A stretch of DNA of 64,000 nt from Streptomyces beigongshangae (GTDB taxonomy: Bacteria > Actinomycetota > Actinomycetes > Streptomycetales > Streptomycetaceae). Of the stretch, positions 2,221 through 36,849 are shown piece after piece. A program made the translations under genes and the position numbers. The notes under the pieces are model-generated. The model was given only the letters and a program-made list of their open reading frames with translations, did not search any database and had not been told where the DNA came from. The stretch is taken from positions 76,006 through 140,005 of the forward strand of contig NZ_JAHKJW010000002.1 of assembly GCF_019710745.1 (NCBI RefSeq), read 5' to 3'. The stretch's first letter is position 1, and each line of letters starts with the position of its first letter.

Positions 2221-3318
2221 GTGCCTGCTTTCTCACGGAGCACCACAACGACGTGCACCTCGGTCCTCGTTCCACCGGCGCTCTCTCTCCCGGTGATCGA
2301 GGCCGAGTTTCCCCGTCAACTCCATCCGTATTGGCCGAAGCTCCAGGAGAACACCAGGGCCTGGCTCCTGGAAATGCGGCTCATGTCGGCGACCAAGGTC
2401 GCGGCATATGCCGACGGGCTTTGCTACACCGACCTCATGGCGGGCTACTACATAGGCGCGCCCGATGAGGTCCTCCAGGCGATAGCGGACTACAGCGCGT
2501 GGTTCTTCGTGTGGGACGACCGACACGACCGCGATATCGTCCACGGGAGGCCGGCGGCCTGGCAGCGCCTCAGGGGCCGGTTGCACGAGGCCCTCGACTC
2601 CCCGGAGGAGCACCTGTACCACCAGGATCCCCTGACCGCGGGACTCGCGGACAGCGTGGTGCGGCTGTACTCGTTCCTGGGCGAGGGGTGGAACGCGCGG
2701 TTCGCCGATCACTTCCACGACGTCATCGAGGCGTACGACCAGGAATTCCGCAATCGTATGTCGGGCACTGTCCCGACCGTCGAGGAATACCTCGAACTGC
2801 GTCGGCTGACTTTCGCGCACTGGATCTGGCTCGACCTCCTCGAACCGAGTGCAGAATGTGAACTCCCGGCTGTCGTGCGTTGCAATCCGGCGTACCGGCG
2901 GGCCGCTCTGCTGTGCCAGGACTTCGCCGCCTGGTACAACGATCTGTGCTCTCTCCCCAAGGAAATAGCGGGCGACGAGGTGCACAATCTCGGTATCAGT
3001 CTCATCCATCACGAAGGGATGCGGCTGGAAGAATCCGTAGCCGAAGTGAGGCGTCGGGTCGAGGAGTGCGTCACCGAATTCCTCGATGCCGAACAGGAGG
3101 TACTGAGGTACACGGAAAGGATGGATGACGGGTCCGTGTGGGGCGCTCGCTCAGCGACTGCCGTGCGGGCGTGTCTGTTCAATATGCGGAACTGGTTCAG
3201 CTCCGTGTACTGGTTCCACCACGAATCGGGACGGTACACGGTCGACAGCTGGGACGACCGCTCCACACCCCCGTACGTCGACAACGAAGCGGCAAACGAA
3301 GCGGCAGGTGAGAAATGA
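2221..3318 (+). CDS. eizA: epi-Isozizaene synthase (sesquiterpene cyclase)
   Basis: This class I terpene cyclase converts farnesyl diphosphate to epi-isozizaene, the first step of albaflavenone synthesis. The Mg-binding aspartate motif DDRHD is at residues 99-103 and the NSE motif NDLCSLPKE near 240, followed by the conserved C-terminal segment ending in a [10 protein letters not shown] block. By recall the sequence matches S. coelicolor EizA (SCO5222) along its whole length. GTG 2221 is chosen because the residues after it align with the known N-terminus and a GAGAGGGG lies upstream. Length is 365 residues. It overlaps cyp170A by an ATGA, so the two are translationally coupled. Confidence 0.95.
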
Positions 3319-28199: not shown

Positions 28200-29345
28200 C
28201 TACTCCTCCACCAGGAGCTTCTCGCGGAGCTGAGCCAGCGTCCGGGCCAGCAGCCGGGAGACGTGCATCTGGGAGATGCCCACCTCCTGGGCGATCTGTG
28301 ACTGGGTCATGTTCGCGAAGAAGCGCAGCAGGAGGATGCGCTTCTCGCGCGGGGGGAGGTCCTCCAGGAGCGGCTTGAGGGACTCGCGGTACTCCACGCC
28401 CTCCAGCGCCTCGTCCTCGGAGCCCAGGGTGTCCGCGACGGCCGGGGACTCGTCGTCCGTGTCGGGGACGTCCAGGGACAGCGTGGAGTAGGCGTTGGCC
28501 GACTCCAGGCCCTCCAGGACCTCCTCCTCCGAGATGGCCAGCTTCTCGGCCAGCTCGTGCACCGTGGGGGAGCGGCCGTGCTGCTGCGAGAGCTCCGCGG
28601 TCGCCGTGGTCAGCGCGAGCCGCAGTTCCTGCAGCCGGCGCGGCACGCGTACGGCCCAGCCCTTGTCCCGGAAGTGCCGCTTGATCTCGCCGACGACCGT
28701 CGGGGTCGCGTACGTCGAGAACTCGACGCCGCGCTCCGGGTCGAAGCGGTCGACCGACTTGATCAGGCCGATGGTGGCGACCTGCGTGAGGTCGTCCAGC
28801 GGCTCGCCGCGGTTGCGGAAGCGGCGCGCGAGGTGCTCCACGAGCGGCAGGTGCATACGGACCAGCTGGTTGCGCAGCTCCGCGTACTCCGGGCTGCTGC
28901 CGTCCAGCTCGCGCAGCCTGATGAACTTGGCCCGCGCCCCGCTCCGGTTGTGGGGGTCGTGCTGTGCTCCCGCCGCGCCGTCGTCGGCGTTTCGTTCGTG
29001 CTCGTGCTGCTCGCTCATGATCCCGCCCGTCACCCGCCGCCGCCCTTCCAAGGACGTCCCCCCAGACTCCGTCCGGGGGGACCCCCACTGCGCGGCAACG
29101 TCTGGATCGTGTCGCCCGTCACTGCCGGAGAGCGCCTCGCGCCCGTCCTCGCCGATCGGCTCTCCCGGAGCCGTCCCGGCCGCCGGCGGACCGCTGTCCT
29201 CCGGGTGCGGCCGGGCCTGCTGCTCGGGAATGCCGTCGATGCCCTCCGCCAGGCGCCGGGGCCCGCCCGGACCGTCCTCGCCCCCGGCGGAGAGTTTTCG
29301 TGTGCCGCGCTCTTCATCCCGCACCGGCCCGTCCCCGTTCCTCAC
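28200..29345 (-). CDS. sigH: Stress/sporulation sigma factor SigH (SigB family), with N-terminal extension
   Basis: The 272-residue core from ATG 29018 has sigma regions 2 (HLARRFRNRGEPLDDLTQVATIGL), 3 and 4 (QSQIAQEVGISQMHVSRLL). The same frame continues upstream without a stop to GTG 29345, which overlaps the ushX stop codon as GTGA. That start gives a 381-residue form with a 109-residue Gly/Pro/Glu-rich extension. In S. coelicolor, SigH is reported in more than one translation product, so I annotate the long form and note the internal start. SigH-type factors direct osmotic-stress and sporulation genes. Confidence 0.85.
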   Translation of the reverse strand: MRNGDGPVRDEERGTRKLSAGGEDGPGGPRRLAEGIDGIPEQQARPHPEDSGPPAAGTAPGEPIGEDGREALSGSDGRHDPDVAAQWGSPRTESGGTSLEGRRRVTGGIMSEQHEHERNADDGAAGAQHDPHNRSGARAKFIRLRELDGSSPEYAELRNQLVRMHLPLVEHLARRFRNRGEPLDDLTQVATIGLIKSVDRFDPERGVEFSTYATPTVVGEIKRHFRDKGWAVRVPRRLQELRLALTTATAELSQQHGRSPTVHELAEKLAISEEEVLEGLESANAYSTLSLDVPDTDDESPAVADTLGSEDEALEGVEYRESLKPLLEDLPPREKRILLLRFFANMTQSQIAQEVGISQMHVSRLLARTLAQLREKLLVEE

Positions 29346-29755
29346 GCCGGCCCGGGTCCCGCGCCGCGCTGTTTGTAGAGGCTGATCGAAACGGTTCTGT
29401 CGTCGGCCACCGAGGAGGAGACCTTGCCCGCGAGTGCCGACAGCACGGTCCAGGCGAAGGTGTCCCGTGCGGGGGCGTGGCCGTCGGTCGTCGGGGCCGA
29501 GACGGTCACCTCGAGCGAGTCGTCGATCAGGCGGAAGACACAGCTGAGCACGGAGCCCGGCACCGCCTGTTGCAACAGGATCGCGCACGCCTCGTCCACG
29601 GCGATGCGCAAGTCCTCGATCTCGTCGAGGGTGAAGTCCAAACGCGCCGCGAGGCCGGCCGTGGCCGTGCGCAGCACCGACAGGTAGGCACCCGCAGCCG
29701 GCAGCCTGACTTCGACGAAGTCCTGGGTCGCGGGCTCGCCTGCGAACTGGGACAC
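29342..29755 (-). CDS. ushX: Anti-sigma factor of SigH (UshX/PrsH)
   Basis: This 137-residue serine-kinase-like anti-sigma factor has the RsbW-type GHKL fold: DLRIAVDEACAILLQQA (N-box) near residue 60 and a degenerate end. It should bind SigH and release it on stress. GTG 29755 follows GGAGG; GTG 29761 is an alternative. The stop codon overlaps the first codon of the long SigH frame, so stoichiometric coupled translation is likely. Confidence 0.88.
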   Translation of the reverse strand: MSQFAGEPATQDFVEVRLPAAGAYLSVLRTATAGLAARLDFTLDEIEDLRIAVDEACAILLQQAVPGSVLSCVFRLIDDSLEVTVSAPTTDGHAPARDTFAWTVLSALAGKVSSSVADDRTVSISLYKQRGAGPGPA

Positions 29756-30006
29756 CCTCACCTCCAAGGTGGTACAAGCTTTTTCGGGGGCCGAGGGTCG
29801 ACCCCCGGTATGACGCGCATCATGGTTCAGCGGTGACGCTATCGCGCTCTCAGGTGTCCTGTCCCCGGGACCCCGACCCCTTGCTGTCACTCATAGTAAA
29901 CCTATGGATACGGACAGTGGCTAGGGGTCTGCGGGCCCAATTAGGAAGAGCGCGCGCCGGATTGACGTACCCAGACGCCAGACGGTCGAACCGTCCGGAC
30001 CCCACG

Positions 30007-34011: not shown

Positions 34012-34201
34012 GACCGTCTCCTCCGTAGTCGTCCGTGTTGCCGGTTGAACGGGCGGCCCGATCTTGGAGTTCCCGGGAGGAAGGAGGGTCCTTGACCCCG
34101 CGGTGCCTGCCGTACCCGTGGTACTCGCCGTACCCGGATCGGCCGGTTCCGCACGCGGGCCCGCACGGTGCCCGTTTACCGAAGATCCATTCCCCCTCTT
34201 T

Positions 34202-34215
34202 CGTGTAATGGCACG
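34202..34215. promoter_or_regulatory. Palindrome upstream of the encapsulin gene
   Basis: CGTG-n6-CACG (14 bp) lies 63 nt before the encapsulin start in the divergent spacer. It has the general form of a Crp/Fnr half-site pair, but the spacing does not match the Streptomyces Crp motif I know. A taatgg inside it could be part of a -10. Confidence 0.3.
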
Positions 34216-34277: not shown

Positions 34278-35681
34278 ATGTCGGTAGGCGAAGAGATCCG
34301 CGCGGACCAGGACCAGCCGCAGAAGAGTCTGGGCACCTCCGCGGCGCGGAACCTGGCCACCACCACCAAGTCCGCGCCGCAGATGCAGGAGATCAGCTCC
34401 CGGTGGCTGCTGCGCATGCTTCCGTGGGTGAACGTGCAGGGCGGCACGTACCGCGTGAACCGCAGGCTCAGCTACTCCGTGGGGGACGGCCGCGTCACAT
34501 TCGTGAAGACCGGCGACCGCGTCCAGGTCATCCCGGCGGAGCTCGGCGAGCTGCCGGCCCTGCGCACCTACGCGGACCAGGACGTGCTGGGCGAACTGGC
34601 CCAGCGCTGCGAGCAGCGCGAGTTCGAGCCGGGCGACGTGCTCGCCTCCTTCGGCAGCCCGATCGACGAGGTGCTCCTGCTCGCGCACGGCAGGGTCGAG
34701 AAGGTCGGCACCGGACCGTACGGGGACGACGCGGTCCTCGGAGTCCTCGCCGACGGCGCCTACTTCGGCGACCAGGCGATCACCGATCCGGACGCCATCT
34801 GGGAGTACACGGCCCGCGCGGCGACCGCGTGCACGGTGCTCGCACTGCCCCGCGCGGACTTCGACCAGATCGGGGAGCGCTCGACCTCCCTGCGCGAGCA
34901 CCTGACGCAGTTGCGCAGCATTCCCAAGCAGCGCACCAACAAGTACGGCGAGAAGGCGATCGACCTGTCGGCCGGTCACACCGGAGAGCCGGCCATCCCG
35001 GGGACGTACGTCGACTACGAGGCCGCGCCACGGGAGTACGAACTCAGCGTCGCCCAGACCGTGCTGCGTATCCACACGCGCGTGGCCGACCTCTACAACC
35101 AGCCGATGAACCAGACCGAGCAGCAGTTGCGGCTCACGGTGGAGGCGCTGAAGGAGCGCCAGGAGCACGAGCTCGTCAACAACCCCGAGTTCGGACTGCT
35201 CAGCAACTGCGAGTACGACCAGCGGATCCAGCCGCACGACGGCGTACCCGGCCCGGACGACCTGGACGAACTGCTCGCCAGGCGGCGCGGCACCAAACTG
35301 CTGCTGGCCCACCCCCGGGCGATCTCCGCGTTCGGCCGTGAGCTCAACAGGCGGGGGCTCGTTCCGGAGACCCTCGACGTGGCCGGCAACCGCATTCCCA
35401 CCTGGCGCGGCGTGCCCCTCTTCCCGTGCAACAAGATCCCGGTCACGGAGGCCAGGACCACCTCGATCATCGCCATGCGCACGGGCGAGGCCGAGCAGGG
35501 GGTCGTCGGGCTGCACCAGACAGGCATCCCGGACGAGATCGAGCCGAGCCTGTCCGTGCGGTTCATGGGCATCAGCGAGCAGGCGATCATGTCGTACCTG
35601 GTGACGACGTACTACTCGGCCGCGGTCCTGGTGCCGGACGCACTCGGTGTCCTGGAGAACGTCGAGATCGGTCGCTGGTGA
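34278..35681 (+). CDS. Family 2B encapsulin shell protein with inserted cyclic-nucleotide-binding domain
   Basis: This is the subunit of a virus-capsid-like (HK97 fold) protein nanocompartment. The 467-residue protein has an N-terminal arm (residues 1-45, ending [10 protein letters not shown]). A Crp-type cyclic-nucleotide-binding insertion follows (about 95-210, with [24 protein letters not shown] and [10 protein letters not shown]). The HK97 body comes next (about 230-467), with the end region [18 protein letters not shown] and an axial [15 protein letters not shown]. The insertion defines family 2B. ATG 34278 follows GGGGAGGA. A polyprenyl synthase gene follows by 61 nt and is the expected cargo. 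Confidence 0.92.
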
Positions 35682-35742
35682 TGACGCCCGGTACGGGGCG
35701 CGCCGTGTTCCCACCGGGCGGGACGGACCTCCGGGTGGGCTC

Positions 35743-36849
35743 ATGACGGAGACGCGGCAGAGCCCGCTCCCGGCGGTCGAAGGGCCCGGACCGGAGCCGG
35801 GACCGGCCCCCGCCGAAAGGGACGATCCGCCCGACGCGCCGGAGGCGGCCGTGATCCTGGAGCGGGCCCGGACCTCGGTCGATCCCGGACTGCGCCGGGC
35901 CGTCGCATCGCTGCCCGCTTCGATACGCCGGGTCGCGCGCTACCACTTCGGATGGGAGCACGCGGACGGCACCCCGGCGGTGGGGAACGCCGGCAAGGCC
36001 ATCCGGCCCGCGCTCGTGCTCGCCGCGGCCGCGGCGCTCGGCGGGCCCCGGACGTCGGCCGTGCGGGCCGCCGCCGCCGTGGAGCTGGTGCACAACTTCA
36101 CGCTGCTGCACGACGACGTGATGGACCGGGACACCACGCGAAGACACCGGCCCACCGCGTGGGCGGTGTTCGGGGACGCCGACGCGATTCTTGCGGGGGA
36201 CTCCCTGCAGGCACTGGCCCACCGGCTGCTCGCCGGCGATCCGCATCCGGCGTCGTCGGCGGCGGCGGTGAGGCTGGCGGACTGCGTCGTCGAACTCTGC
36301 GCGGGACAGCAGGCGGACACCGCGATGGAGCACCGGAGTCCCGACGACATCACGCTCGACGAGGTGCTCGCCACGGCCGAGGCCAAGACGGGCGCACTGC
36401 TGGGGTGCGCGTGCGCGCTGGGGGCGCTGTACGCGGGTGCGGACGACACGGACGTGGAGGCGCTCGACGCGTTCGGGCGGGAGGCCGGGCTGGCGTTCCA
36501 GTTCATCGACGACGTGATCGGTATCTGGGGGGACCCGAGGCGCACCGGCAAGCCGGCCGGGGCGGATCTGATCACCCGCAAGAAGTCCCTGCCGGTGGTC
36601 GCCGCGCTCACCTCCGGTACGCCGGCCGCGGCCGAACTCGCCGAGCTGTACCGGGGCCCCTACCAGGACGGCGATCTGGAACGCACGGTCCTCGCCGTCG
36701 AGCGGGCGGGCGGACGGGACTGGGCCCAGCAGCAGGCTGCCGACCGGATGGCACAGGCTCTGAGCCATCTGTTCCGCGCGGTCCCGGACCCGGAGGCGGC
36801 GGAGGGGCTGCTGTCGCTGGCGGAGTTCGTGACGCGCCGGAACATGTGA
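35743..36849 (+). CDS. Polyprenyl diphosphate synthase, predicted encapsulin cargo
   Basis: This trans-isoprenyl diphosphate synthase (368 residues) has the first aspartate-rich motif HDDVMDRDTTRR near residue 126 and the second as QFIDDVIGIWGD near 255. It also has GKAIRPALVL and the GAD-KKSLP loop. Residues 1-40 are Pro/Glu/Ala-rich, predicted disordered and precede the catalytic fold. Family 2B encapsulin cargo enzymes carry such N-terminal targeting segments. Chain length of the product is not readable. It is in tandem with the shell gene. Confidence 0.92.
   Translation: MTETRQSPLPAVEGPGPEPGPAPAERDDPPDAPEAAVILERARTSVDPGLRRAVASLPASIRRVARYHFGWEHADGTPAVGNAGKAIRPALVLAAAAALGGPRTSAVRAAAAVELVHNFTLLHDDVMDRDTTRRHRPTAWAVFGDADAILAGDSLQALAHRLLAGDPHPASSAAAVRLADCVVELCAGQQADTAMEHRSPDDITLDEVLATAEAKTGALLGCACALGALYAGADDTDVEALDAFGREAGLAFQFIDDVIGIWGDPRRTGKPAGADLITRKKSLPVVAALTSGTPAAAELAELYRGPYQDGDLERTVLAVERAGGRDWAQQQAADRMAQALSHLFRAVPDPEAAEGLLSLAEFVTRRNM

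Follow-up and report, generated by a model that had tools for sequence, protein, structure and literature searches.

The window analysed here is a stretch of 64,000 nucleotides from Streptomyces beigongshangae (contig C112 in our numbering; genome of 9.13 Mb in 212 contigs). It carries, on the forward strand, a gene for a Family 2B encapsulin shell protein (34278..35681, 467 amino acids) and, 61 bases further on, a gene for a trans-polyprenyl diphosphate synthase of encapsulin cargo family 4 (35743..36849, 368 amino acids). The shell protein matched NF041163 (encap_f2b) over the full profile with 771.9 bits (cut-off 400). The synthase reached 487.5 bits with NF041169 (f2_encap_cargo4; cut-off 450) and 195.5 bits with PF00348. 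The original prediction, made from the DNA letters, of a Family 2B encapsulin next to a polyprenyl synthase was therefore correct, both profiles being over cut-off and both open reading frames being placed exactly. Judged by its sequence, the gene pair is a member of a published class, the prenyl-synthase-type Family 2B encapsulins. It does not differ in kind from the operons of shell and polyprenyl synthase described by Andreas and Giessen (2021, PMC8346489), who reported 900 Family 2B prenyl-transferase operons, 888 of them in Actinobacteria.

The shell protein shows the Family 2B arrangement of 16 N-terminal residues and then an N-terminal arm (N-arm) ahead of the shell domain. Its SrpI-like HK97 part covers residues 216-466 (34923..35675; PF19307, 453.7 bits). 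The PF00027 match (residues 114-200, 58.9 bits, cut-off 27.5) lies ahead of this part, as expected for an E-loop insertion, and belongs to a Crp-like insertion of the cyclic nucleoside monophosphate (cNMP)-binding fold at residues 92-210 (34551..34907). The matches to PF19307 and PF00027, with the full-length match to NF041163, confirmed the proposal of an HK97-type shell with a Crp-like insertion. The protein also aligned with the solved Family 2B shells 9bhu, 9bje and 9bix, with 652 bits across 454 residues for 9bhu. We take 9bhu, 9bhv and 9bi0 to be Sg Enc (EshA), the 2-methylisoborneol (2-MIB) synthase compartment, and 9bix and 9bje to be two-component Family 2B shells of Streptomyces lydicus. 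An AlphaFold2 model of the window's shell was not used (mean predicted local distance difference test, pLDDT, of 41; alignment too shallow). From its homology to solved shells, the protein would assemble into a small icosahedral cage.

The genome of the window contains one Family 2B shell gene and five prenyl-synthase genes. A two-component system, with two shell genes in one operon, is therefore ruled out; the S. lydicus two-component shells share the fold and the Crp-like insertion (PMC12407261), whereas the window's genome is single-shell. Upstream of the first shell gene of two-component systems we observed a palindrome-like block, CACTC[TG]TT[TC]GAGTGA (L208, L212, L214, L215 and L218; looser in L209, L213, L217 and L220; L and G numbers are our handles for loci and genomes). 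It partly resembles a block upstream of the window's shell gene, described below.

The distribution of the gene pair was assayed in several samples. In a sample of 396 genomes from the phylum, 20 had a synthase over the NF041169 cut-off, 19 of them in the same genus and one in another family. A shell gene lay directly upstream in all 20 of these loci, the window's own included, and in 77 of 80 named loci (79 from Streptomyces, one from an 'Actinobacteria bacterium'); a contig end truncates the remaining three. Because the shell adjoins the synthase in both sets, the pairing is not due to chance. Among 150 Streptomyces genomes, 113 had a synthase over the cut-off, with one match each at E <= 1e-130, and 147 had some Family 2B shell over the cut-off.

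The catalytic motifs of the synthase are intact. The first Asp-rich motif, DDVMD (D124-D128, 36112..36126), and the second, DDVIG (D256-G260, 36508..36522), have D124, D125 and D128, and D256, D257 and G260, in 136/136 relatives. F119, at position -5 of the first motif, was likewise found in all 136, and the motif has no insertion. The position five before the first Asp-rich motif is, we assume, the chain-length determinant, with Phe there and no motif insertion giving C20. These two features suggest a C20 product; among short linear isoprenoids, geranylgeranyl diphosphate would be the most likely one. IdsB-type geranylgeranyl diphosphate synthases share the fold and motifs; the window's enzyme scored 366 bits against NF045549, under the cut-off of 475, and the encapsulin-linked synthases differ from the IdsB type by conserved residues of their own (43 sites). 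These 43 sites were not used as evidence of shell contact, being equally explained by orthology.

The AlphaFold2 model of the synthase had a mean pLDDT of 86, with residues 1-31 (35743..35835) below 50. The disorder proposed for the N-terminus was thus recovered, over about 31 residues and not the 40 first suggested. In the window's synthase 66 residues precede the conserved YHFGW. The longest stretch that could precede YHFGW ranged from 43 to 308 residues over the 138 distinct loci compared, and no in-frame start gave more than 50 residues in 17 of them. When starts were chosen by ribosome site, the length was at most 50 in 40 loci, 51-70 in 31, 71-100 in 48 and longer in 19. Neither length nor sequence was conserved, so that a conserved disordered N-terminal extension, as a cargo trait, was not found across these loci; PMC8346489 likewise found no motif in the prenyl-transferase cargo extension. 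The fetched stretches of 20 paralogue loci showed no shell. Two of these (L118 and L124) lack the anchor and were omitted; of the other 18, among them the paralogue of the window's own genome, 15 had at least 58 residues before YHFGW. Four of five synthases from other genera, at loci shared with a geosmin synthase, start close before the conserved part, and no cyclase tag of the kind described below was found in these five (best 4/8).

Because tail length and sequence vary and shell-less paralogues have similar tails, the claim that the N-terminal tail loads the synthase is unsupported as a general mechanism. Two further tail sequences were observed. In 11 of the 20 paralogue loci (L107, L110, L111, L113, L115-L117, L119-L122) the tail has a peptide around VPTVP, often TRGETVPTVPP, and the synthase of L056 has a very long tail of repeats like GSEARAE..LHG.

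A different candidate for cargo loading came from the shell itself. The N-arm peptide (residues 17-31, 34326..34370) lies within the most conserved of five shell segments. Among shells chosen by the pattern AAR.LA..TK, which is itself located inside the compared stretch, residues 14-38 had a mean identity of 94.7% within the prenyl-synthase type and 87.4% to the terpene-cyclase type. The corresponding values were 87.4% and 73.0% in the C-terminal HK97 part and 73.0% and 47.9% in the Crp-like domain. The pattern was missing in 15 of 146 pair loci (a set that includes the window-locus copies L001, L033 and L086 and the other-genus loci L087 and L097): 14 start inside the shell, and in L097 the frame begins differently. 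The core of the arm read SLGTSAAR or SLGTAAAR in 140/161 arms. Geosmin-type cyclase cargos carry the tag GPTGLGTSAAR (PMC8346489), the core of which, GLGTSAAR, closely resembles the arm's SLGTSAAR.

With a scoring matrix built on the N-arm, two geosmin-type cyclases scored 4.6 and 16.5, and seven 2-MIB-type cyclases scored -0.5 to 0.4, their common part being only GP[ST]GLGT. Four prenyl-synthase loci scored above 3 (best 7.2). These matches were taken as chance, since one shuffled sequence reached 11.2, and an N-arm-like peptide in the prenyl synthases was rejected. Sg Enc (EshA) is a homologous shell (454 residues) with the same domain plan and N-arm, but its cargo is a terpene cyclase, whereas the gene next to the window's shell encodes a prenyl synthase that lacks a tag of this kind. 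What appears to be new is the sequence likeness of the N-arm to the geosmin-type cyclase tag, which is carried also where no shell gene is nearby. No mention of this likeness was found in the consulted portions of PMC8346489 and PMC12407261, and a literature search for LGTSAAR with encapsulin returned PMC8346489 only; the 2024 report on the 2-MIB compartment may treat it. The word geosmin occurs twice in PMC8346489 and is absent from the main text of PMC12407261. Geosmin-type cyclases would enter shells by means of this peptide, a copy of the N-arm, which perhaps docks where the arm would otherwise lie.

The window's own genome contains a two-domain cyclase on another contig (G000:C160:10791-12896), whose first domain matched the germacradienol/geosmin synthase 5dw7 with 690 bits. 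It carries GPTGPGTSAAD between its domains (6/8 to GLGTSAAR) and no C-terminal copy. Against NF041168 it scored 1136 bits, under the cut-off of 1200; this cut-off was passed in 23 of 393 genomes of the class, most matches falling below it. Geosmin synthases were counted at E <= 1e-200, which gave 94 of the 393 genomes, 44 of them Streptomyces. No genome of this genus was among those listed without a geosmin synthase (279 of the 299 lie outside the list). The tag was then counted in 91 of 96 geosmin-synthase matches (left out: G575, G754, G866 and the second copies in G783 and G810). At least six of eight positions matched GLGTSAAR in the linker or tail of 80/91 and in none of the shuffled linkers and tails. 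One match fell in the catalytic domains (L312); domain borders were set by simple patterns, and this one may be a misplaced border. Of 60 geosmin synthases without a shell in the fetched flank (about 1.5-2.5 kb; a shell lies just beyond it in L315, L319 and L276), 51 were tagged, 33 of them with at least 7/8. Other terpene cyclases of the window's genome did not reach this level: five of six loci attained only 4/8 and the sixth, L265, had no match to the tag pattern. The window itself has a terpene cyclase gene at 2284-3267, with 67 bits to NF041168 and no N-arm-like tag (best 4/8).

Geosmin synthases and Family 2B shells also occur together. A Family 2B match at E <= 1e-90 was found in 93 of the 94 geosmin-synthase genomes, partial or weak in three of them (G550, G648 and G745). 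In the 94th, G602, a shell cut by the contig end is followed by a prenyl synthase over the NF041169 cut-off and a geosmin synthase. Among the 299 genomes without geosmin synthase, 25 had a Family 2B match, and 10 of these matches were strong. The other 15 were weak (about 1e-100 to 1e-112) and possibly belong to Family 2A. By genus, the match was present in 20/20 with geosmin synthase against 27/122 overall (hypergeometric 2e-17, ancestry uncorrected).

In thirteen Streptomyces genomes (G000, G056, G087, G095, G133, G416, G436, G456, G480, G791, G812, G853 and G867) a single Family 2B shell was found, belonging to the window's type, and the geosmin synthase lay on another contig or at least 0.89 Mb away; separate contigs of a draft assembly may in reality adjoin on the chromosome. 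The tag scored 7/8 in three of these genomes and 6/8 in seven; two others reached 5/8 and the last 4/8. Six of the thirteen were scored in full (G436, G456, G791, G812, G853 and G867); in many genomes the four best shell candidates were scored, so that a further weak shell could be missed. In a fourteenth single-shell genome, G731, the shell is of another type and adjoins the geosmin synthase. Finally, five loci, four from genus g269 and one from genus g333, unite a prenyl synthase with a geosmin synthase, and each has a shell gene as well, inside the fetched stretch or just outside it.

The chromosomal place of the gene pair was analyzed in 95 loci with long flanks. Upstream, a sigma factor was matched in 91, a Na/H exchanger in 94, a pyridoxal phosphate enzyme (PALP) in 94 and an amidase in 77; downstream, a TetR gene was matched in 31 and a RibD-like gene in 40. 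The place of the pair near the sigma-factor gene is fixed in most relatives. In the window, a sigma-70-family gene with regions 2, 3 and 4 lies at 28203-29819, and it is probably sigH. In S. coelicolor, sigH is SCO5243 (PMC8346170) and eshB is SCO5249 (PMC3878966). Because these two lie near each other, the window's shell is most likely EshB; this probable orthology comes from synteny and locus numbers only. SCO5250, which follows it in the numbering, is counted among the isoprenoid-pathway genes and was 4.4-fold higher on glucose (PMC7494193). The eshB promoter is up-regulated during development (PMC3878966), eshB has log2 values of 2.9, 3.2 and 2.4 in second versus first mycelium (PMC3610822), and it is a possible direct target of AtrA repression (PMC13170358). 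The system had been put forward as underexplored; as probable eshB, with published expression data, it is less so than claimed. The non-conservation of the tail and the fixed locus of the shell are what the present analysis adds to PMC8346489 on the gene pair.

When 122 distinct regions upstream of the shell gene, among them that of the window, were aligned, a conserved block, CATTCCCCCTCTTTCGTGTAATGGC, stood out at 34188..34212 on the forward strand (pattern CATTCCC[GC]CTC[AT]TTCG[TG]GTAAT[AG]GC). Allowing up to 3 mismatches, no second copy turned up in the genome. This block is possibly a promoter or an operator.

In usual cNMP-binding domains, the Arg of the phosphate-binding cassette holds the phosphate. 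The shell lacks this residue: in alignments to two domains of a usual-cassette protein, Trp175 (34800-34802) takes the place of the Arg. Trp was present at this position in 127/127 shells of the window's type and in 30/30 of other types (157/157 in total). According to PMC12407261, earlier work saw no binding of cyclic nucleotides by the Crp-like domain of Family 2B. Because of the invariant Trp in place of Arg and of this earlier result, cyclic nucleotides are disfavoured as ligand, and the domain is unlikely to bind one. The Trp suggests instead a different ligand, or a structural role. The Crp-fold domains would lie outside the cage and would respond to something other than cyclic AMP or cyclic GMP.

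Altogether, we consider it probable that the locus encodes a prenyl-synthase-type Family 2B encapsulin, probably EshB, in which the shell would form a cage, the neighbouring synthase would most likely make geranylgeranyl diphosphate and would sit in or on the cage without a conserved N-terminal tag, and geosmin-type cyclases would enter by a copy of the N-arm. Several observations weigh against this reading. A synthase over the cut-off was missing in 37/150 Streptomyces genomes. Of these, 34 still gave a shell match of some kind at E <= 1e-100, and in seven the shell is of the window's type (72-85% identity). In two of these seven the synthase is altered, by an insertion in G045 and by a frameshift that splits it in G082 (L063 / L233). 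The other five have the shell but no intact synthase beside it: G006, G010 and G141 have the shell only, in G101 a large deletion inside the synthase leaves remnants of it near residues 1-54 and 316-364, and G051 (L258, 9233-13300) has a two-domain geosmin-synthase-type cyclase directly after the shell in place of the prenyl synthase. The usual neighbours are kept in G006, G101 and G141; none was found in G010 and G051. Thus, the shell either serves some purpose independent of that synthase or is in decay. Moreover, prenyl synthases had a median N-arm-matrix score of -3.2 versus -5.4 for shuffled sequences, slightly higher, although the top score was that of a shuffled one. Finally, eshA, the paralogous shell gene, was reported to be dispensable for 2-MIB synthesis (PMC6428758).

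How far the geosmin synthase is part of the system can be argued in several ways. It may be, and we propose this tentatively, that this enzyme is the main tagged cargo of the shell in Streptomyces and is loaded in trans, with the prenyl synthase co-packaged or docked outside. The stricter version of this proposal, in which the EshB shell packages the geosmin synthase in trans by the N-arm-copy peptide and the prenyl synthase is a second, untagged cargo, is drawn from sequence comparison and is a somewhat more tentative one. The tag counts in linkers and tails, the many tagged enzymes with no shell gene in the fetched flank, the near-complete co-occurrence with Family 2B shells and the thirteen genomes with unlinked genes all point this way. 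So do the five loci that unite shell, prenyl synthase and geosmin synthase, and the shell of G051, which directly adjoins a geosmin-type synthase and falls inside the window's clade (support 0.74; the tree covers 35/127 shells of the type). On the other side, the tag of the G051 enzyme is weak (GPGTSGLD, 4/8 by hand count), as it is in three of the thirteen single-shell genomes (5, 5 and 4 of 8), and the window's own genome has only GPGTSAAD, a weaker form that is found in many Streptomyces. Shared ancestry and genome size confound the co-occurrence, which also includes the three partial or weak shell matches and leaves ten genomes with a strong Family 2B match and no geosmin synthase at the threshold used. 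The neighbouring synthase is predicted to make C20, but geosmin synthase uses a C15 substrate. The report on eshA and 2-MIB counts against trans loading as well, EshA being a sister shell. Alternatively, the tag could be a structural linker of the enzyme, unrelated to shells, and the N-arm likeness a relic of an encapsulated ancestor. This is rather unlikely in our view: the change to GPGTSAAD and the loss of the C-terminal copy in many Streptomyces agree with it, as do the distant 2-MIB-type cyclases, which share only GLGT and score near zero with the N-arm matrix, but the tag recurs at two sites, linker and C-terminus, other terpene cyclases of the window's genome lack it, and shell matches were found in all 20 geosmin-synthase genera.

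Two other explanations concern the prenyl synthase. Its Pro/Glu/Ala-rich N-terminal tail could load it into the shell, as the disorder in the model, the proposal of disordered cargo termini as loading elements (PMC8346489) and the 98/138 loci with more than 50 residues before YHFGW by ribosome-site choice would allow. The short tails of 17 to 40 loci and of four of the five other-genus synthases, the similar lengths in shell-less paralogues and the lack of a cyclase-tag-like peptide make this quite improbable. Still less probable is a shell whose main role is regulation or storage, with the prenyl synthase linked for expression only. EshA is tied to guanosine tetraphosphate (ppGpp) and development (PMC6627660), eshB is itself developmentally up-regulated, and five genomes keep the shell without an intact synthase beside it; against these stand the tight linkage of shell and prenyl synthase in other genera too, and the curated family assignment of both genes.

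The reading of an encapsulin whose shell arm resembles a cargo tag makes the question of loading in Family 2B concrete, as the most conserved segment of the shell holds a peptide that geosmin-type cyclases bear as a tag. The invariant Trp in the Crp-like pocket likewise provides a handle on the ligand question. If geosmin synthase were indeed loaded in trans, searches of neighbouring genes would have missed a principal cargo. The enzyme behind the smell of soil would then work in a protein cage, and the geosmin pathway, present in 44 of the sampled Streptomyces genomes, would be compartmentalised.

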